A stretch of 64,000 nucleotides of DNA from positions 1,566,210 to 1,630,209 of the forward strand of contig NC_012440.1 of NCBI RefSeq assembly GCF_000021565.1, in the 5' to 3' direction. Positions 6,845 to 40,802 of the stretch are shown here, piece after piece (within the stretch, counting starts at the first letter, position 1; each line of letters opens with the position of its first letter). The notes under the pieces were generated by a model. That model had not been told where the DNA came from. It made no database searches and saw nothing but the letters and a program-made list of their open reading frames with translations. The position numbers and the translations under genes were made by a program. The DNA is from Persephonella marina EX-H1. Its GTDB lineage: Bacteria; Aquificota; Aquificia; Aquificales; Hydrogenothermaceae.

Positions 6845-7034
6845 GAGCTTCTTCTCTATTAAATTTGTAATTTTCAGGTAGTTTGCCTTTTGGATCTGAA
6901 AGCAGGGTTTTTAAAAGTTCCTTTTTGTTTTTATTATATTTTTTTAACAGATACTCATAGTAGTTCAACAGCTCGTTTCTGGCTTCTTCAGGTAGTATTC
7001 CAATGTTTATATATATATCTTCTTTCTTTTCCAT
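6834..7034 (-). CDS. Small antitoxin-like protein (DUF2281-type) paired with the PIN toxin
   Basis: The 66-residue, highly charged protein has an N-terminal segment ILPEEARNELLNYYEYLLKKY that resembles DUF2281 antitoxins, in which a helix of the form LPEE-x-L-x-FIEFLL precedes a disordered, toxin-binding tail. GGAGG lies 5 nt before the ATG. It overlaps the PIN gene by 11 bp and has a candidate promoter immediately upstream. I see no obvious DNA-binding domain in the short N-terminus, so autoregulation is uncertain. Assignment rests mainly on size, position and the short motif. Confidence 0.68.
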   Translation of the reverse strand: MEKKEDIYINIGILPEEARNELLNYYEYLLKKYNKNKKELLKTLLSDPKGKLPENYKFNREEAHER

Positions 7035-7070
7035 CTTAAGCCTCCATTAGCAAGCCTTCAATCAAATCTT

Positions 7071-7098
7071 AATATAAGGTTACCTGACTTTTTATCAA
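7071..7098 (-). promoter_or_regulatory. Candidate sigma-70 promoter of the toxin-antitoxin pair
   Basis: On the minus strand TTGATA (7093-7098), a 16-nt spacer and TATATT (7071-7076) form a good sigma-70-like element. The -35 overlaps the legI stop codon. A small palindrome, CTTA-ATA-TAAG, covers the -10 and could be an operator. Confidence 0.5.
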
Positions 7099-8102
7099 AT
7101 ACATATATTTATAACCTCGTCTTTTTTGAAATCTCTTGGCGCTTTTTTTCCTATAATCTCATTCCATCTCATAGGAGATATACCCGTTCCAGGTCTTTTT
7201 ACTGTCAGATTCTCTTCTGTGAATATCTCTCCCTTTTTTATATCCCTTTTAGCAACTATACTCTTTCTTGCAACAGGAATATTTTTTATCTCTGATCTTG
7301 AAGGTTTTTTGATCCCATCTCCTAAAGCTTTTTCTACATTTCTGATAGCTCTCACCATAGCTTTTAGTTCATCAGGCTCTAAACTTGCCTTATGGTCAGG
7401 TCCCGGCAGATCCCTGTCAACTGTAAAATGTTTCTCTATAACTGACGCTCCAAGTGCAGCTGCGGCAACTGGTATCTCTATTCCTGTTGTGTGGTCAGAG
7501 TAACCAACTTTTACCTTAAATGCCTCCTTTATAGTTAGCATAGCTCTAAGATTTACATCTTCATAGGGTGTTGGGTATTCTGTGTTACAGTGGAGAACAG
7601 TTATATCTTTCTTTTCCGTTCCATTTTCTATCAGAACATCCAGAGCATCCTCTATCTCCCCAAGATCTGCCATACCTGTTGATAGTATAACCTTTTTCCT
7701 GTAGCTTCCTATCTCTTTCAAAAGAGGGTAGTTTGTTATCTCCCCTGATCCTATCTTGAATATATCCAGACCTAACTCTTTTAAAAATCTTGCACTTTCA
7801 ATATCAAATGGTGTTGAGAGAAATGTTATCCCTCTCTTATCACAGTAGCTTTTTAGCTCCTCAAAATCATTGAAAGACAGCTCAAGTTCCTTCAGCATAT
7901 CTAACTGTGATTTTGTTTTTCCTAAATTTTTCTTCTGGTATTCAGCCATCTCTGCATAAAGATTGACAAGGTTTTCAGCTTTAAATGTCTGGAATTTAAC
8001 AGCATCAGCTCCTGAATCTACAGCGATATCAATCAGTTTTTTTGCAAGATCAATACTTCCGTTATGATTAACACCAGCTTCTGCTATGATAAAAACTCTC
8101 AT
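7095..8102 (-). CDS. legI: Legionaminic acid synthase (NeuB family)
   Basis: The 335-residue enzyme condenses phosphoenolpyruvate with the 2-epimerised diacetamido sugar to form the nine-carbon acid. The start IIAEAGVNHNGS, the segments AVKFQTFKAE, KIGSGEITNYPLL and LHCNTEYPTP, and the C-terminal antifreeze-like SAF domain (about residues 275-335, beginning near VARKSIVAKRDI) define NeuB-family synthases. The length matches the family. The ATG at 8102 overlaps the legH stop by 4 bp. Downstream the operon is interrupted by the toxin-antitoxin pair. Family members make Neu5Ac, legionaminic or pseudaminic acid; the legB/C/H context favours legionaminic. Confidence 0.9.
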   Translation of the reverse strand: MRVFIIAEAGVNHNGSIDLAKKLIDIAVDSGADAVKFQTFKAENLVNLYAEMAEYQKKNLGKTKSQLDMLKELELSFNDFEELKSYCDKRGITFLSTPFDIESARFLKELGLDIFKIGSGEITNYPLLKEIGSYRKKVILSTGMADLGEIEDALDVLIENGTEKKDITVLHCNTEYPTPYEDVNLRAMLTIKEAFKVKVGYSDHTTGIEIPVAAAALGASVIEKHFTVDRDLPGPDHKASLEPDELKAMVRAIRNVEKALGDGIKKPSRSEIKNIPVARKSIVAKRDIKKGEIFTEENLTVKRPGTGISPMRWNEIIGKKAPRDFKKDEVINICI

Positions 8103-8731
8103 CCTATCTTCCTCAGAGGGTTTCCGGCATATACACCTGAATCTTTTATATCTTTGATAACAACAGAACCAGCTCCTATAACAACATTATCGGTGATTGT
8201 AACTCCGTTTGATACAGTTGAGTTACTTCCTACAAAGGTTCCATCTCCTATCCTTACTCCGCCGTTGATAACGGCTCCTGTTGATATATGACAGTGATCC
8301 CCTATCTCACAGTCATGTTCTATTATGGATCCTGTGTTTATTATGCAGTTTTTCCCTATTTTAGCATCTGGATTTATGATCACGTTATCCATCACTACAG
8401 TTCCCTCCCCTATATCACAGTAAGGGGATACTTTTGAGAGAGGTGATATAACAACAGGAAACTCACCTCCAAGAGATTTTATCCTCTCAAAAAGAGATCT
8501 TCTTTTATCTGCGGACTTTATCTGACCAACTGTTATGAGAAAGTAACTGTAATCTTTTAAAAGATCATTTATATCATCATCTGAGGCTATGATGGGATAG
8601 TTTAAAACCTTTTCCCCTATTCTCTCCTTCTTATCCACTATACCTGCTATCTTAAAATTCCCAGATCTCTCAATTATCTCAATACATACCTTGCAGTGAC
8701 CACCACCGCCAACAAGTATTATCTCTTTCAT
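8099..8731 (-). CDS. legH: Sugar N-acetyltransferase (LegH/PglD/NeuD family)
   Basis: The 210-residue protein has an N-terminal Rossmann-like domain starting IILVGGGGHCKVC. From about residue 90 onward it has a left-handed beta-helix of hexapeptide repeats, ending in the conserved AGNPLRKIG. This is the PglD/NeuD architecture, which acetylates the 4-amino group of an NDP-4-amino sugar with acetyl-CoA. Sitting directly after the LegC aminotransferase, with a 4-bp overlap, it fits the step that makes the NDP-2,4-diacetamido sugar. NeuD enzymes that O-acetylate sialic acids look similar, so the substrate is an inference from gene order. Confidence 0.83.
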   Translation of the reverse strand: MKEIILVGGGGHCKVCIEIIERSGNFKIAGIVDKKERIGEKVLNYPIIASDDDINDLLKDYSYFLITVGQIKSADKRRSLFERIKSLGGEFPVVISPLSKVSPYCDIGEGTVVMDNVIINPDAKIGKNCIINTGSIIEHDCEIGDHCHISTGAVINGGVRIGDGTFVGSNSTVSNGVTITDNVVIGAGSVVIKDIKDSGVYAGNPLRKIG

Positions 8732-33770: not shown

Positions 33771-35669
33771 TTACAGGAATTTCTTTAACTCTTCAGGTGG
33801 TATGGGAGGCTGAAGGTAGTAACCCTGCCCGTAGCATATACCTGTGTTCAGTATCTTTTCAAGAATCTCTCTGTTGTTTATATACTCGGCAACAACCTTT
33901 ATGTTAAGGTCATCTGCAAAATGTTTGATAGCCTTTACTATGGAATAAGCTTTGTTATCAACATCTATCTTCTGTATCAGACTTCCATCTATTTTAAGAT
34001 AGTCCGGGTTTAACTCTATTATATGGCTGAAGTTTGAGTAACCTGCTCCAAAATCATCTATTGCTATTTTGCATCCGATAAACTGGAGTTTGCTTAGCTG
34101 TTTTTTGAAAACATCGTAATTTTCTATCTCCTCAGACTCAAGTATCTCTATTGTTAGTCTACTTGCCTCGTCCTTCTCAAACATATCAGCAAAGAGTTTT
34201 ATTATATCCTCGTTGTATATATCCATAGCGGAAAGATTTATACTTATCTCAACATCCTTATACTTCTGGAGGATCTTTTTGTTAAACTCTATTATCTTTT
34301 TCGTGATATCCACATAGATGTAAGTTCTTTTAATTGGTGGTATAAACTCATTTGGATACAGAACTTCCCCATCCTTTGTGATGATCCTTACCAGAGATTC
34401 AAACTTTACAGCTGTTATTGTACTCAGGTCTATAATAGGCTGATAATGGCAGACAATCCTGTTCTCCTCAACAGCCTCTTTTATCACGTTTATATTCTTT
34501 TCACTTACCTTTAAGGCAACGTTGTACACCTCTATCCTGTTTCTCCCCTTCTGCTTTGCACTGTAAAGTGCGATATCAGCATGTTTTATAGCTTCCTCTA
34601 TTGATTTTTCATGCTCGTAGAAATTTATCCCTATGGATACGGTAACCTTAAGTTTTATATTTTCTATATCAAAGGGATAAAACTCTATCTCATTTTTTAT
34701 TCTTTTTGCCAGGTTCAGGATGTTCTTTTTGTATTCTGGTGATACAGGGTTTGCCCGAATTAGAAGTAAGAACTCCTCACCTCCGTATCTGATAAGTATG
34801 TCGTTATCTCTGATACATCTGTTTATCCTTTTTGTCAGCTCTTTAAGAACAAAATCACCTATCTCGTGGCCGTAGGTATCGTTTATCTTTTTAAAATGAT
34901 CTATATCTATAACGAACACTGTAAAGGGGTAGAACTTGAAAAGATCAGAGTTCTCATAAAGGAAAAGTCTGTTATAAGCCCCTGTTAGGGGATCGTAGTA
35001 CATCTTTTTCAGTTTTTTCTCATACCTGAAAAACTGGTAGATCGATACTATAAAAGATACTAGAACGAAGGAGATTCCTATAAGAAGAGCGTTCTGTATC
35101 TTCCTTACAATCTTTTTTATCTCGTGGAGCTTTTCTATAGAAAAATCAAGAACAATGAGACCTTTAACCTCATTATTCTGAACAATAGGTTTTATGTAGG
35201 TGATCCAGAGAAAGTCTATAAGTTCCTGTTTTATGATAAGATCCCTTTTTGTCTCAAAAACTTTGTACCATTCAGGATTAAAAATATCAAACTTCTGCCA
35301 GTATCTTCCCCTATCCTCAAGTGATATATCTAAAAGGTATCGTAACTTCCCATCTTTATCTCTGTATAGAATGTATGCATACTTAACATCAGGTGTAAGA
35401 AAAAGGGAGAACATCTTCTCTATCTCCCTTCTTGAGGAAGGATTCTGGAAGATGTACTTTATGTCCTGTCCGGAAGATTTAAAGAGGATGGCTTTTCTCA
35501 GATTGTTTAAAGGCTGTGAAATCCCCGGTATAACAGCATCGTTTATTATGCTGTCCTCTATAATCTTTCCAAATTTCGGAATGAGTATATATGAACCACC
35601 TAAGATCAGGAAGATAAAGATAAACATGTAAGAAAGATTGAGAAGATGCTTCCTGCTTCTCTCTACCAT
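33771..35669 (-). CDS. Membrane GGDEF-EAL protein with periplasmic sensor domain
   Basis: The 632-residue protein has TM1 about 12-31, a periplasmic sensor about 35-190, TM2 about 192-213, then GGDEF and EAL domains. GGEEF at 296-300 and the inhibitory-site RDND at 287-290 are intact, so diguanylate cyclase activity with feedback control is likely. In the EAL domain the motif is ESL (424-426), but the catalytic Glu, Asn, Glu, DDFGAGYSN, Lys in YLKID and Glu in VVAEYI remain, so phosphodiesterase activity is also possible. It is the last gene of a seven-gene operon and overlaps the periplasmic gene by 7 bp. Confidence 0.93.
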   Translation of the reverse strand: MVERSRKHLLNLSYMFIFIFLILGGSYILIPKFGKIIEDSIINDAVIPGISQPLNNLRKAILFKSSGQDIKYIFQNPSSRREIEKMFSLFLTPDVKYAYILYRDKDGKLRYLLDISLEDRGRYWQKFDIFNPEWYKVFETKRDLIIKQELIDFLWITYIKPIVQNNEVKGLIVLDFSIEKLHEIKKIVRKIQNALLIGISFVLVSFIVSIYQFFRYEKKLKKMYYDPLTGAYNRLFLYENSDLFKFYPFTVFVIDIDHFKKINDTYGHEIGDFVLKELTKRINRCIRDNDILIRYGGEEFLLLIRANPVSPEYKKNILNLAKRIKNEIEFYPFDIENIKLKVTVSIGINFYEHEKSIEEAIKHADIALYSAKQKGRNRIEVYNVALKVSEKNINVIKEAVEENRIVCHYQPIIDLSTITAVKFESLVRIITKDGEVLYPNEFIPPIKRTYIYVDITKKIIEFNKKILQKYKDVEISINLSAMDIYNEDIIKLFADMFEKDEASRLTIEILESEEIENYDVFKKQLSKLQFIGCKIAIDDFGAGYSNFSHIIELNPDYLKIDGSLIQKIDVDNKAYSIVKAIKHFADDLNIKVVAEYINNREILEKILNTGICYGQGYYLQPPIPPEELKKFL

Positions 35670-36106
35670 AAGTTTTTTTCACTCTCTATAAACTGGATAA
35701 GTTCCTGCGGTGGCGTAATATTGAATCTTTCCAATCTTTCCCTGATAAGAATAATATTTGGTCTTCCTTTATGCCAGTAAAGGGCCCCTATAACATTGTG
35801 GTTGTATTTAAGAAGATAGTATTTTGTGGTAAATATTGGCTTATTTCCACATTTTTCTACAGGGAACTTCTTTGTCAGTATTACAATATCAGCCTTTTCA
35901 CAGCTGTCTATAACTCTGAGATTATGGGAATGTCTGAACATATCCTTTATACCGTCTGTTATGAACACATTTATATCTTTTTTATCCATAACAAATGTAC
36001 ATATTTTCTCTATTATCCTCGCCTCTACTCTCTTATCCCCTGTGTATTTAGAGGCTATCGCTACTTCCGTAATAATAAGCAGTAACAGCAGTATAATCTT
36101 CTTCAT
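35663..36106 (-). CDS. Periplasmic protein with YfiR/DUF4154-like pattern
   Basis: This protein of about 147 residues has a signal peptide (MKKIILLLLLIITEVAIA). The order of segments matches YfiR/DUF4154 proteins by eye: an N-terminal helix EARIIEKICTFV, strand INVFITDG, CEKADIVILTK (the Cys-His-x-LF-like strand), a Gly strand with VIGALYWHKG, and a final ERFNITPPQELIQF helix resembling the GL-x-ISS-x-LL end. YfiR controls an inner-membrane diguanylate cyclase in the YfiBNR system. The start may be ATG 36106 (TAATG coupling to the TonB receptor) or 36118. The match is weak and needs a profile search; two cysteines remain. Confidence 0.45.
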   Translation of the reverse strand: MKKIILLLLLIITEVAIASKYTGDKRVEARIIEKICTFVMDKKDINVFITDGIKDMFRHSHNLRVIDSCEKADIVILTKKFPVEKCGNKPIFTTKYYLLKYNHNVIGALYWHKGRPNIILIRERLERFNITPPQELIQFIESEKNLW

Positions 36107-37983
36107 TAAAAGAACCATTTAAATATAATCGTAAACCGTCTATCCACCGTTGAGTACTTGAAGTTATCAATAAGGGTTGGTGTTTTTAACGCTTTATTTA
36201 AAAGGTTATCACCCTTTATAGATATCTCTTTACTATCATCAATATGGAAAGTTAAAGCTGTGGTCAGATCATAGCCATCTTTGATCCTGTAGGTTGATAC
36301 ACTGTAACCTTTTCTGTAAACAAGTCCTGTGTAAAGATCAAACCTGTTTCTTGTATAGAATAGTTTAATATGACCTCCCTGGTCTGGGCCAAGTTCAACG
36401 TCATCAAAATTTGTATCTGCCAGAAAGTAATTGAGAATTATTTTTGTGTTTTTGCCTGCTTTAATGCTGTAATCAAACGATATGAACTTGTACCTGAGTG
36501 TTGTATTTTCATTGTAGTATGCAAGTGTTACCGGATTTAAGACTATCTGGTTTTTTGTTATTGCATAACCTCCTACAATCCCAAACTTCTGGTTTTTTCC
36601 TTTAAATGTTATCTCAGAAGTCCATATCTTGTTTCTCTGTTTTCTGAGGGAAGGTTGGGTAACGATCTCTAAGAATACAGGTGGTGTGTAATAGACGGAA
36701 GCAAAACTTTTAAAAGATATAAAATGGTTTGAAAAGAGTATTATGCCTACCCTTGCTGTAAGGCCGTTTATATCTCTAAACTGTTTTTTCCTCTCATATC
36801 TGTCATATTTGATGCCGGCAATCAGCATATTTTCAGGAGAGAAGTAATAGCTGTTTTCAACGAATATTGAGTATAGATTTTCAGAGTTCTGGGTAAATAA
36901 TGAGATTCCACCGTATCTGATCTCGTCTATCTTATACCAGCTTCTCTGGTACTTTAATCCTAAGAAAAGCTCATTGTTTGGTCTGCTGAAATTTTTGTAC
37001 ACCTCAATACCGTATCTCTTTTCATAGGTGCTGTTCTCATATCCTTTCACATACTCTGTTGGATTGGAAACTATTATGAAATTAAGGGGAGTAAAGCTCT
37101 CCTGGTAGGTATAGGATTTTATATCATCGTAAAAAAGTATCAGCTTGAGTGATCTATCATCGAGATGTTTTGATGTTAGAGATATGTAGTTATGTCTTCC
37201 TGTAAAATCATCCTTATCCGGAGCTCCTCTGTAAGAAAAACCTCTGAATAGATCAGCATCCTTATACATACCTGAGTACTCAAATACTAAATCTTTATAT
37301 CTGAAGTATGTGTAAGTGAAGAAGTTACTGATTTCCTGTCTTATATCTTTATACTCGTTTCTGTACTTCTTCCATCTTATTGAGTTTTTACCTGTGTAGA
37401 CGAAGAAGGATGTGTGATCGTCCAGCTCCTTGCCGTAATAGGAATTAATACCGTATCCCTTTCTTGAAGATAGGAATGTTCCTAAGTATCCACCGTTCTC
37501 CCTTTCCGGTGGTTTTGTGTACAGCTTTATTATCAGACCTGCCGTTTCATTGTTGAACCTTATAGCACTTTCGCCCTGGTATATCTCTATATGATCTACA
37601 AAATCTAAAGGGATCTCACCCCATATCGGGAATGGTGTCCTTCTGTATACAGAACTTACCTCGTGGTCGTTTATATAAAGTCTTATTGTTGTATTGTTTA
37701 TAGGGTACATTGTTGCGTAAGCGATCACATTTTCACCGAGCATATTTTTCTGGAGGATAAAAAATCTGATTATCTTCAGAACATCTTCAAGTGTGTAAGC
37801 CTGCATCTTTTCAAGATCTTCTCTGGTGAAAATTATGAGATGCCCTTCAGATTCAAGCTTTGTTTTTTTTGATAGCTCTGACTTCTCCCTGTACTCCTCA
37901 AGGATATCGGTGATAGAATTACTGTAGGACTGTCCTGTCAAAAACAGCACCAGCAAACATAATACAACAGTAACTCTTAACAT
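36106..37983 (-). CDS. TonB-dependent receptor-like outer membrane protein
   Basis: The 625-residue protein has a signal peptide (about 1-20), a plug domain with LEDVLKIIRFF, FVDHIEIYQGESAIRFNNETAGLIIKLYT, and a beta-barrel ending in aromatic Phe (KWFF), the outer-membrane targeting end. The plug fits the receptor family (BtuB/FepA/CirA) that imports or senses vitamin B12, siderophores or metals. A TonB box near the N-terminus is not clear, and TonB is not in the window. The ATG at 37983 overlaps mobA by 7 bp. With the YfiR-like and GGDEF-EAL genes it may act as a sensor rather than only a transporter. Confidence 0.85.
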   Translation of the reverse strand: MLRVTVVLCLLVLFLTGQSYSNSITDILEEYREKSELSKKTKLESEGHLIIFTREDLEKMQAYTLEDVLKIIRFFILQKNMLGENVIAYATMYPINNTTIRLYINDHEVSSVYRRTPFPIWGEIPLDFVDHIEIYQGESAIRFNNETAGLIIKLYTKPPERENGGYLGTFLSSRKGYGINSYYGKELDDHTSFFVYTGKNSIRWKKYRNEYKDIRQEISNFFTYTYFRYKDLVFEYSGMYKDADLFRGFSYRGAPDKDDFTGRHNYISLTSKHLDDRSLKLILFYDDIKSYTYQESFTPLNFIIVSNPTEYVKGYENSTYEKRYGIEVYKNFSRPNNELFLGLKYQRSWYKIDEIRYGGISLFTQNSENLYSIFVENSYYFSPENMLIAGIKYDRYERKKQFRDINGLTARVGIILFSNHFISFKSFASVYYTPPVFLEIVTQPSLRKQRNKIWTSEITFKGKNQKFGIVGGYAITKNQIVLNPVTLAYYNENTTLRYKFISFDYSIKAGKNTKIILNYFLADTNFDDVELGPDQGGHIKLFYTRNRFDLYTGLVYRKGYSVSTYRIKDGYDLTTALTFHIDDSKEISIKGDNLLNKALKTPTLIDNFKYSTVDRRFTIIFKWFF

Positions 37984-38588
37984 TCTTTAACTTTCCTTTT
38001 TACAGCCTCATAAAGCTGTGGGGTGTTTATACTAAGGTAAGATGATAGATCTCTATCTATGTTTAATATTTTATCTTCAAAAATCTTTTTATGCCTGATT
38101 AATTTTATCCATCTATAAAGCGATCTAATACCTTTTTCGTGATAAGCTTCTCTTCCCTTGAGTAATGCGGACTTTCTGTAAACGGTGTTTAAAGGCTGAA
38201 ACTTCCCTTTTATTACGGGGATAACCGCTTCGTAATCATCTATCTCATCTATTAGAAATGGTATTATATCTGGTTTCAGTAAAGGTGTATCACAGGTTGA
38301 TATAAACACAAGATCATGATTTATGTGATCTATACAGCTTATTATCCCGTTCAGCGGACCAGAGTAAGGTTCTATATCCTTTACAAAGACAAAATCAGCC
38401 TTAAGATCGTACGTTTCCTTCATATAAAGGTCTTTTTCCCTGTTTCCAGAGATTATTATCTGGTCACAGTATATATCTAACTTCTCAAGTATATGCCTGA
38501 GGAATGTTTTACCACACAGCTCCAGGAAAGCTTTATCCCTTCCCATTCTTTTACTCTCTCCCCCTGCCAGAACAACTCCTGTAATCAT
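37977..38588 (-). CDS. mobA: Molybdenum cofactor guanylyltransferase MobA
   Basis: The protein of about 203 residues has the GTP-binding start VVLAGGESKRMGRDKAF, IISGNR, and the metal-binding STCDTPLLKP. These identify MobA, which adds GMP to molybdopterin to make the guanine dinucleotide form used by DMSO-reductase-family enzymes. The ATG at 38588 overlaps the preceding stop as TGATG; a GTG three bases earlier is possible. Its place between an outer-membrane factor and a TonB receptor is unusual, since mobA normally groups with moa or molybdoenzyme genes. A link to molybdate or metal status is possible but unproven. Confidence 0.87.
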   Translation of the reverse strand: MITGVVLAGGESKRMGRDKAFLELCGKTFLRHILEKLDIYCDQIIISGNREKDLYMKETYDLKADFVFVKDIEPYSGPLNGIISCIDHINHDLVFISTCDTPLLKPDIIPFLIDEIDDYEAVIPVIKGKFQPLNTVYRKSALLKGREAYHEKGIRSLYRWIKLIRHKKIFEDKILNIDRDLSSYLSINTPQLYEAVKRKVKEC

Positions 38589-39772
38589 CACAGCTCTCCA
38601 AGAAGGGCTTTTATATTTATATACTCTACATTTGTGTTGTATATTGACTCCACAGCTTCAATCTCTGAGTTCAATGAGTCTCTGATTGCTATTATAAGAT
38701 CAGATATATCTCTTTTACCTTCTAAAAACTCCATTTTTGAGATCTGAATATTCATACCATGTTTGCTCTTTAAAGAGTTGTTAATCAGATTGTAAATATA
38801 CCTGTTTTTCTTTATTCTGTAATAGCTTGATAGAAGCTGGTACCTCAGTAAATTCTCAATGTATCTTATCTCTTCTTCTATGGAGACCTTTTTCAGCTGG
38901 GCTTCTAAAACGATCTGTTCCTGTCTTATAGTTCTCCATATCGGTATATTGACCCCAATTCCTACAGAAAAGCTGTCCTGAAGTCTGTCTTCAGGTGTTG
39001 TTCTGAGTGAGAGTGAAAGATCAGGATAGTAGATCATCTTTGAGAGTTTAAGTGATTTACTTAATCTTTCCAGTCTTTTTCTGTAGCTCTGTAGCAGTGG
39101 ACTTTTGTCTTTCATCTCCTCAAGAAGCGTTTCAGGTGTAACATCTATATTTACGATCTTCAGGTTTATGTTTATATCGTTAAGTGTGTCATTTATAAGT
39201 GACTCAATATTTGAGAACTCTATCTTCTCATCTATGAGAAGACTCTGTTTTTCCTTATATAGATTTTCCACTATTATTAAAAATTTTAATCTGTCACCGT
39301 AGCTAAAATTTTCTTCTATCTCTGACTTTATCTTTTCTGTCAGTTCAATATACTTCTTGTATATCTTTATCTTTTCCCTTATAAGCCATAGTCTGTAAAC
39401 AGATTCATATATCTTCTGTATGATCTCATTTTTCTTTGAAAGGAGAAAAAAGTATTTCTCCTCATAATTTTTTGTCTCTATCTGGTAGATGGTATCTAAT
39501 TTTTTTGGGTAAGGGATTTTCTGTGAGATTTTGAATGTAACAGCTCTATATGGTTTTTCAAAGGCATCCCTCCCACCAAATGTGAGAGAGATAGACGGGT
39601 TAAAAAGTTTTCTGGCTACTTTTGCTTTTTTCTCCTGTATCTTCAGCTCTTTTTCAATCTTCCTTATTTCAGGGTTGTTTTTTCTCGCCTTATCAATAAG
39701 CTCCTGTACACTATCCCCATAACTGAAGGAAGCCACGCAAAAAAAAAGCAGTAAGGCTACTTTTGCCTGCAT
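38588..39772 (-). CDS. TolC-family outer membrane factor
   Basis: The 394-residue protein has a signal peptide (about 1-19, CVASFSYG). It has two helical repeats with the family pattern: ARKNNPEIRKIEKEL early, and MKDKSPLLQSYRKRLERL followed by LSLSLRTTPEDRLQDSFSVGIGVNIPIW in the second half. TolC-like proteins form the outer channel of RND or other efflux pumps. The pump and periplasmic adaptor genes are not here. The start overlaps the Fur-family gene by 16 bp. As the next genes are mobA and a TonB receptor, metal efflux is a possible role. Confidence 0.83.
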   Translation of the reverse strand: MQAKVALLLFFCVASFSYGDSVQELIDKARKNNPEIRKIEKELKIQEKKAKVARKLFNPSISLTFGGRDAFEKPYRAVTFKISQKIPYPKKLDTIYQIETKNYEEKYFFLLSKKNEIIQKIYESVYRLWLIREKIKIYKKYIELTEKIKSEIEENFSYGDRLKFLIIVENLYKEKQSLLIDEKIEFSNIESLINDTLNDININLKIVNIDVTPETLLEEMKDKSPLLQSYRKRLERLSKSLKLSKMIYYPDLSLSLRTTPEDRLQDSFSVGIGVNIPIWRTIRQEQIVLEAQLKKVSIEEEIRYIENLLRYQLLSSYYRIKKNRYIYNLINNSLKSKHGMNIQISKMEFLEGKRDISDLIIAIRDSLNSEIEAVESIYNTNVEYINIKALLGEL

Positions 39773-40191
39773 TCCTTACATATTCCAAATATCTCTAAAC
39801 GGTGGAACTCAGGTTTAAAATCATACTTGTTACATATCTTATCCTGTAGTTTCTCAATCTCATCTGAATGAAACTCTATAATCTTTCCACATTTTTTACA
39901 TATGAGATGGTCGTGGTGTTCCTTGAGAGCCACTTCATATATGGTTTTGTTTCCGTACTTGATAACCTCGTTAACGAGACCCATCTCTTTAAGAATGTTG
40001 AGTGTTCTGTAAACTGTTGCCCTGGATACGCTCATATTCTTTGTTTTGATCTTGTGGATAAGATCCTCAATCTCAAAGTGACCTTTTGTGGAAATTATCT
40101 TTCTGAAGATAGCTTCCCTCTGGGGAGTGTACTTTAAACCAGACTTTTTGATGTAATGTTTAAATTCCTTCAAAAGTTCTGATTTTTTCAT
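39757..40191 (-). CDS. Fur-family metalloregulator
   Basis: The protein has about 144 residues. The winged helix (KYTPQREAIFRKI, RATVYRTLNILKEMGLV) is followed by the metal-binding dimerisation domain EHHDHLICKKCGKIIEF, and by the second CxxC (ICKEC) near the C-terminus, which with the first forms the structural zinc site. It could be Fur (iron), PerR (peroxide) or Zur; the Asp/His pattern does not decide. I chose the ATG at 40191, behind AGAGGTGAGG; a GTG at 40197 would overlap the preceding stop by 4 bp. It is second in the operon and likely regulates it. Confidence 0.9.
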   Translation of the reverse strand: MKKSELLKEFKHYIKKSGLKYTPQREAIFRKIISTKGHFEIEDLIHKIKTKNMSVSRATVYRTLNILKEMGLVNEVIKYGNKTIYEVALKEHHDHLICKKCGKIIEFHSDEIEKLQDKICNKYDFKPEFHRLEIFGICKECRQK

Positions 40192-40193
40192 CC

Positions 40194-40802
40194 TCACCTC
40201 TTATCTGGTCTTTTTAGTTCAAAGGTATTTTCTTTAGTTATGAGGCAGTAATTTGCCCCTCCTAACCTTCCTATTATCTCAAGTTCTGTGGTATCAACAT
40301 ACCCTTTTTCATTTAGGATATCATCTCTTATGTGAAAATTCAAAACCTGACCAAGTATTATCCCCATCTTTCCTATCTGTATTATTTCATACTTTCTGCA
40401 CTCAATATTTACAGGAGACTCTTTCACCCTTGGAGCTTTTACATATGTTGAAGGAGCTGGTGTTAAACCTGTTTTTTCAAACTCGTCAATCTCACTCTCA
40501 AACGGTATTGATGATATATTCATCTCCTCAAGAAGATCTCTTGTAACAAGATTTATAACAAACTCTCCGGTTTCCTCTATATTTCTCCATGTATCTTTTT
40601 TTACACCTGGCTCTTTACTTCCTATGGAAACAACAACGAGAGGTGGATCACTTGAGATACCTGCATAATAGCTGAAGGGTGCAAGGTTGTTAATACCCTC
40701 CGGACTTACAGTTGAAATCCAGGCAATAGGCCTGGGAACGATCACAGAAGTCATAAGCTTATATATATTTTTTGGCTCTAAATTCTCTGTTTTTATCTCC
40801 AT
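40194..40802 (-). CDS. Flavin reductase family protein (flavoredoxin-like)
   Basis: The 202-residue split-barrel FMN protein has the segments SVIVPRPIAWISTVSPEG, NLAPFSYYAGISSDPPLVVVSIG, DTWRNIEETGEFVINL and PVNIECRKYEI, which define flavin reductase/flavoredoxin proteins. It probably moves electrons between NAD(P)H or ferredoxin and FMN. As first gene of the operon, before a Fur regulator, it could help reduce ferric iron or protect from oxygen, but this is inference. AGAGGACGGG precedes the ATG, and a promoter with an AT-rich palindrome lies just upstream. Confidence 0.83.
   Translation of the reverse strand: MEIKTENLEPKNIYKLMTSVIVPRPIAWISTVSPEGINNLAPFSYYAGISSDPPLVVVSIGSKEPGVKKDTWRNIEETGEFVINLVTRDLLEEMNISSIPFESEIDEFEKTGLTPAPSTYVKAPRVKESPVNIECRKYEIIQIGKMGIILGQVLNFHIRDDILNEKGYVDTTELEIIGRLGGANYCLITKENTFELKRPDKR

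Follow-up and report, generated by a model that had tools for sequence, protein, structure and literature searches.

A conserved TonB-dependent receptor, small periplasmic protein, and GGDEF-EAL protein in Persephonella marina form a candidate Yfi-like relay across the cell envelope

The window analyzed in this study was a stretch of 64,000 nucleotides from the genome of Persephonella marina EX-H1 (1.98 Mb, two contigs). ORF calling recovered all seven genes that a previous sequence-only reading had described as an overlapping run; they were located on the minus strand at 33771-40802, with adjacent ORFs overlapping by approximately 1 to 16 nt. Read along that strand, the run comprised genes for a flavin reductase-like protein (40194-40802; Pfam Flavin_Reduct, 2e-26), a Fur-family regulator (39757-40197; FUR, 7e-40), a TolC/OEP outer-membrane factor (38588-39772; OEP, 6e-36), a MobA-like NTP transferase (37977-38591; NTP_transf_3, 6e-35), a TonB-dependent receptor (36106-37983), a small periplasmic protein with a signal peptide, here called SPP (35663-36106, the longest ORF extending to 36118), and a GGDEF-EAL protein (33771-35669; GGDEF, 4e-39; EAL, 3e-55). 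These Pfam matches, all far over their cut-offs, backed the families assigned previously. When the region was scanned for promoters and terminators, the promoter counts were no better than in shuffles.

The receptor was predicted to consist of a plug and a large beta-barrel and would be the outer-membrane component. Its earlier identification as TonB-dependent was upheld: Pfam returned only a sub-threshold Plug match, but the best Foldseek matches of an AF2 model built from 31 sequences (pLDDT 84.5) were FptA, FpvA, FoxA, BtuB, and OprC, all of them solved TonB-dependent transporters, with E values of about 1e-20, and the conservation described below agreed with this call. No STN signaling domain was detected at the N-terminus in the Pfam scan. 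Before the plug lay a conserved N-terminal element (I..LL..YEE...LSKKT..ES.GH) with T41 and G47 invariant, and N-terminal elements of such receptors represent a possible contact site for a periplasmic regulator or for TonB. The P. marina genome contained one TonB gene.

The GGDEF-EAL protein was the predicted inner-membrane output, in which hydrophobic segments at about residues 12-30 and 195-213 enclosed a predicted periplasmic domain of ~160 residues. This sensor domain was weakly PDC-like (Pfam PDC, 8e-5), and neither CHASE8 nor HAMP was found in the protein by Pfam. The RDND I-site and the GGEEF active site of the GGDEF domain (34770-34811, minus strand) were both present, as claimed earlier, and the EAL site, which that reading did not mention, was intact as well, with all catalytic positions (ESL, N, E, DD, K, E, Q) in place. 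Among aligned outputs from related loci, GG[DE]EF was retained in 67 of 71 and the EAL catalytic residues in nearly all, and judging by these motifs both synthesis and breakdown of c-di-GMP are probably possible. Because the two sites are intact, the sign of the response is not readable from sequence. Three Aquificaceae outputs (loci L071, L073, and L085) had a degenerate GGDEF motif, SGEEF or AGEEF.

SPP carried the motif W-x-K-G-R-P, in which G114 and R115 were invariant and the tryptophan nearly invariant across a 44-row alignment, the proline being invariant within a closer subset. In the window protein this region forms a KGRPN signature at residues 113-117 (35756-35770, minus strand), within the C-terminal strand pair. 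None of the 44 members had a convincing Pfam family, and weak matches to DUF5099, 2mcf, and ribosomal uL4 in Pfam and PDB sequence searches were taken as chance. When the AF2 model of SPP (pLDDT 87) was compared with known structures by Foldseek, the first rank was occupied by 3LKV, a binding-protein fold reported as a Dali neighbor of YfiR in the YfiR structure paper (PMC4655355). Ranks 2-5 were single-domain substrate-binding proteins of Rhodothermus marinus, and ranks 6-14 were nine YfiR chains with probabilities of 0.96-1.00 and moderate TM scores of 0.47-0.57. The modeled fold is therefore YfiR-like, with a moderate resemblance, and a single-domain substrate-binding protein scored about as high as YfiR against the same model.

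The previous placement of SPP in the YfiR/DUF4154 family was supported by the predicted fold but not by the family profile. The DUF4154/YfiR profile (PF13689) matched neither the window SPP nor anything else in the P. marina genome, and DUF4154 was absent among the Pfam families listed for the 44 SPP relatives at E<=10; the R. marinus substrate-binding proteins were not retrieved by this profile either. HHalign aligned SPP with DUF4154 colinearly over the full length. An initial probability of 93.5% was discarded, as trimming and shuffling indicated that it was inflated by signal peptides, and the probability was 6-19% once these were removed. The HHalign score was 21.7 against a shuffled maximum of 16.6 (100 shuffles), and with more sequences it was 24.9, at a probability of 15-19%, against a column-shuffled mean of 11.5 and maximum of 24.0 (n=200). 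As the profile gave no match and the profile-profile similarity was weak, SPP is called YfiR-like in this study and is not filed under DUF4154. Exactly two cysteines were present in 64 of 95 SPPs, usually as the pairs 48/69, 69/86, or 102/105, and the conserved cysteine pairs of YfiR are Cys71-Cys110 and Cys145-Cys152 (PMC4655355). In the profile alignment, in which similarity was weak, SPP residue 48 fell in the Cys71 column and Cys69 lay three residues off the Cys110 column.

A protein search across 101 genomes from the same order showed that most genera of the family have SPP relatives, as do several genera belonging to a second family; a profile search across the phylum (136 genomes) yielded 43 SPPs. 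SPP was also present in 55 of 298 Campylobacterota genomes; the search of that phylum and a profile scan of GTDB contigs extended it to Sulfurimonas, Sulfuricurvum, Nitratiruptor, and others. A scan of the GTDB contigs with the single protein found no relatives, while the profile scan found them, and a plasmid search found no SPP on plasmids. ORFs were called around each SPP gene and labeled with profiles. The 93 SPP genes compared were distinct sequences, not independent events; a GGDEF-EAL gene lay directly after SPP in 84 of them, 79 of which also had the receptor directly upstream (79/93 for the complete trio); the gaps to these two neighbors had medians of -1 and -4 nt. The remaining loci were cut by contig ends, or one partner was missing or exchanged. 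This arrangement is far beyond chance, and the conserved unit consists of three genes shared by Aquificota and Campylobacterota. Of the seven genes described previously, the last three were kept across both phyla; the complete seven-gene unit, with its TolC-like gene, was found here only.

Several loci departed from this arrangement. L244 was the one intact locus in which SPP had no receptor or output gene beside it; its flanking genes lay at 6855-7484 and 7928-8674. In L035 and L227, a tandem pair of receptor genes preceded one SPP gene. In one genus (L037, L058, L079, and L080), a GGDEF-only protein sharing the sensor domain of the trio outputs was encoded upstream of the receptor, and SPP was followed by a different gene, that for adenylosuccinate lyase in L037.

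The receptor and SPP were also matched in number. Three trios occurred in the P. marina genome, and its SPP genes and its receptors of this family, three of each, all lay within them. SPP and receptor identity among the three was only 27-34%, which indicated that the trios are old. In a sample of 101 Campylobacterota genomes, all 17 receptor-positive genomes were also SPP-positive in the larger search, and two genomes (G150 and G215) each carried three SPP genes matched by three receptors. Distance matrices computed for the receptor, SPP, and the sensor domain were correlated (r ~0.82, with permutation maxima <0.15 and species phylogeny not factored out), which shows that the three are inherited as a unit.

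The output position varied behind a constant receptor and SPP. In two Campylobacterota loci the receptor and SPP were followed by a histidine kinase, which in L124 had the same sensor domain as the SPP-trio outputs (E 6e-47) and in L238 a different sensor. Such an exchange of outputs argues for signaling rather than transport. A parallel arrangement was observed around true DUF4154 proteins. Campylobacterota DUF4154 genes adjoined receptor-sized outer-membrane genes in nearly all loci examined, all nine of the neighboring receptors tested were TonB-dependent by Pfam, and the outputs were GGDEF proteins, GGDEF-EAL proteins, or kinases, several of them with CHASE8. Plasmids of Sphingobium, Indioceanicola, and Pseudoalteromonas likewise encoded a receptor, a YfiR-type protein, and a CHASE8-kinase or CHASE8-GGDEF-EAL protein. 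In L207, comprising DUF4154, receptor, and kinase genes, the kinase sensor matched the SPP-trio sensor domain over its full length (E 2.7e-21), which indicated that DUF4154 and SPP occupy the same place. These operons resemble the trio in spanning three compartments, several share its gene order, and one shares its sensor domain; they differ in that the periplasmic component is a true DUF4154 protein and the receptors are only distantly related to those of the trios. By eye, the N-termini of SPP-linked receptors showed LSKKT..ES.GH, while those of DUF4154-linked receptors (loci L206-L225) showed a SLEELL..VxSxS-like element. In two further loci, L221 and L222, DUF4154 formed the N-terminus of a longer protein, which in L221 also contained GGDEF, and a receptor-sized gene lay alongside.

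The strict pairing of SPP with the receptor would also be expected if SPP served receptor assembly or stability, perhaps as a chaperone dedicated to it in the periplasm, and the GGDEF-EAL protein were a separate sensor. The mostly paired cysteines of SPP suit a small folded periplasmic helper. However, such a role leaves the equally strict pairing with the membrane sensor unexplained, as well as the parallel DUF4154 operons, and we regard it as highly improbable. The trio very probably acts as one signaling unit. The earlier proposal that receptor, YfiR-like protein, and sensor output form a single signaling system was in this respect sustained by conservation of the trio, by the YfiR-like fold of SPP, and by the like association of true DUF4154 proteins; its direction was not, as the intact phosphodiesterase site means that a binding signal may equally lower c-di-GMP.

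The sequence-only reading had further linked the system to metals through the Fur-family and flavin reductase genes. These genes, together with that for the MobA-like protein, do lie beside the trio in P. marina and, elsewhere, only in its close relatives (eight loci), and they could indicate that the trio serves uptake under Fur metal control, the c-di-GMP gene being merely co-transcribed. Most trios, however, had neither Fur nor flavin reductase and still kept a GGDEF-EAL or kinase gene, and it was the output genes that were swapped while receptor and SPP remained constant. Fur-controlled uptake is accordingly quite improbable as an explanation, and metal sensing as a general function of the trio was rejected because Fur is not conserved with it. 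The flavin reductase, Fur, and MobA-like genes are lineage-specific neighbors. In eight close relatives the MobA gene came straight after the Fur gene, and only in this genome did the TolC-like gene (38588-39772) intervene.

The main rival to a relay through SPP concerns the nature of SPP itself. SPP could be a small ligand-binding protein, the receptor merely importing the ligand, with loaded or empty SPP regulating the GGDEF-EAL protein. A precedent is polyamine sensing by NspS-MbaA, in which a binding-protein-like periplasmic regulator adjoins a GGDEF-EAL membrane protein, and the five top Foldseek ranks, 3LKV and the R. marinus proteins, point the same way. NspS is a two-domain PotD-like protein and is not known to have a receptor partner in its operon, whereas SPP is a single domain without the two-domain binding-protein cleft. 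Moreover, YfiR has the same fold resemblance yet works by protein contact (PMC4655355). A ligand-carrying SPP of the NspS type is therefore unlikely, and it is somewhat more probable than not that SPP is a YfiR-type regulator acting on the sensor via protein contact.

The closest known system is YfiBNR (YfiR/HmsC, YfiN/DgcN, and YfiB) of Pseudomonas aeruginosa and E. coli, which likewise combines in one operon an outer-membrane part, a small regulator in the periplasm whose fold is that predicted for SPP, and an inner-membrane GGDEF protein with a periplasmic sensor. There, however, the outer-membrane part is the lipoprotein YfiB and not a TonB-dependent receptor, and Pfam found no OmpA/Pal-like lipoprotein of the YfiB type among the seven proteins of the run. 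YfiR falls within PF13689 and SPP outside it, and the YfiN sensor is CHASE8-HAMP, whereas the trio sensor is PDC-like and the EAL domain of the trio output is intact. Malone and colleagues presented YfiR-YfiN as a modular core whose outputs vary and which often lacks YfiB, and did not mention TonB (PMC3375315); divergent YfiNR systems showed output swaps to GGDEF-EAL proteins and kinases, and the outer-membrane input of the common YfiB-less pairs was left open (PMC3375315). The FecA-FecR-FecI transducers are also comparable, in that signaling across the envelope starts from a TonB-dependent receptor, as it would in the trio. They differ from the trio, whose receptor had no STN match, which has no anti-sigma or sigma factor, and which has c-di-GMP turnover or a kinase as its output. 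The open-access papers searched contained no account of a receptor, SPP or DUF4154 protein, and output in this arrangement.

The fixed three-gene unit, the predicted compartments of its products, the fold likeness of SPP and YfiR, the exchangeable outputs, and the occurrence of DUF4154 in the same slot together make it fairly probable that the trio relays a signal across the envelope in a Yfi-like manner, with a TonB-dependent receptor as the input in place of YfiB. In such a relay, a ligand would bind the receptor, and might also be imported by it, and the periplasmic face of the ligand-bound receptor would change so that SPP is captured or released. SPP would bind the sensor domain that the GGDEF-EAL protein exposes to the periplasm, and would fix that protein in one state. 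By gaining or losing SPP, the output could then shift its balance between c-di-GMP synthesis and breakdown. Counting against this relay are the miss by the DUF4154 profile, the low HHalign probability without the signal peptide, the moderate TM scores, and a sensor that is not of the YfiN type.

Taken more broadly, the chances lie slightly on the side of TonB-dependent receptors being the general outer-membrane input of Yfi-type signaling. Several receptor families, two YfiR-fold regulators (DUF4154 and SPP), and exchangeable GGDEF, GGDEF-EAL, or histidine kinase outputs would then belong to one modular system extending from Aquificota to Proteobacteria. A TonB-dependent receptor encoded alongside is a specific and widespread candidate for the outer-membrane input of YfiB-less YfiR-YfiN pairs. 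If the relay operates as proposed, it would provide a second way, besides the FecA-FecR route, for TonB-dependent receptors to control behavior, and the unnamed SPP family would gain a testable function. In vent and sulfur bacteria, the scavenging of scarce substrates would thereby be tied to attached or motile life.
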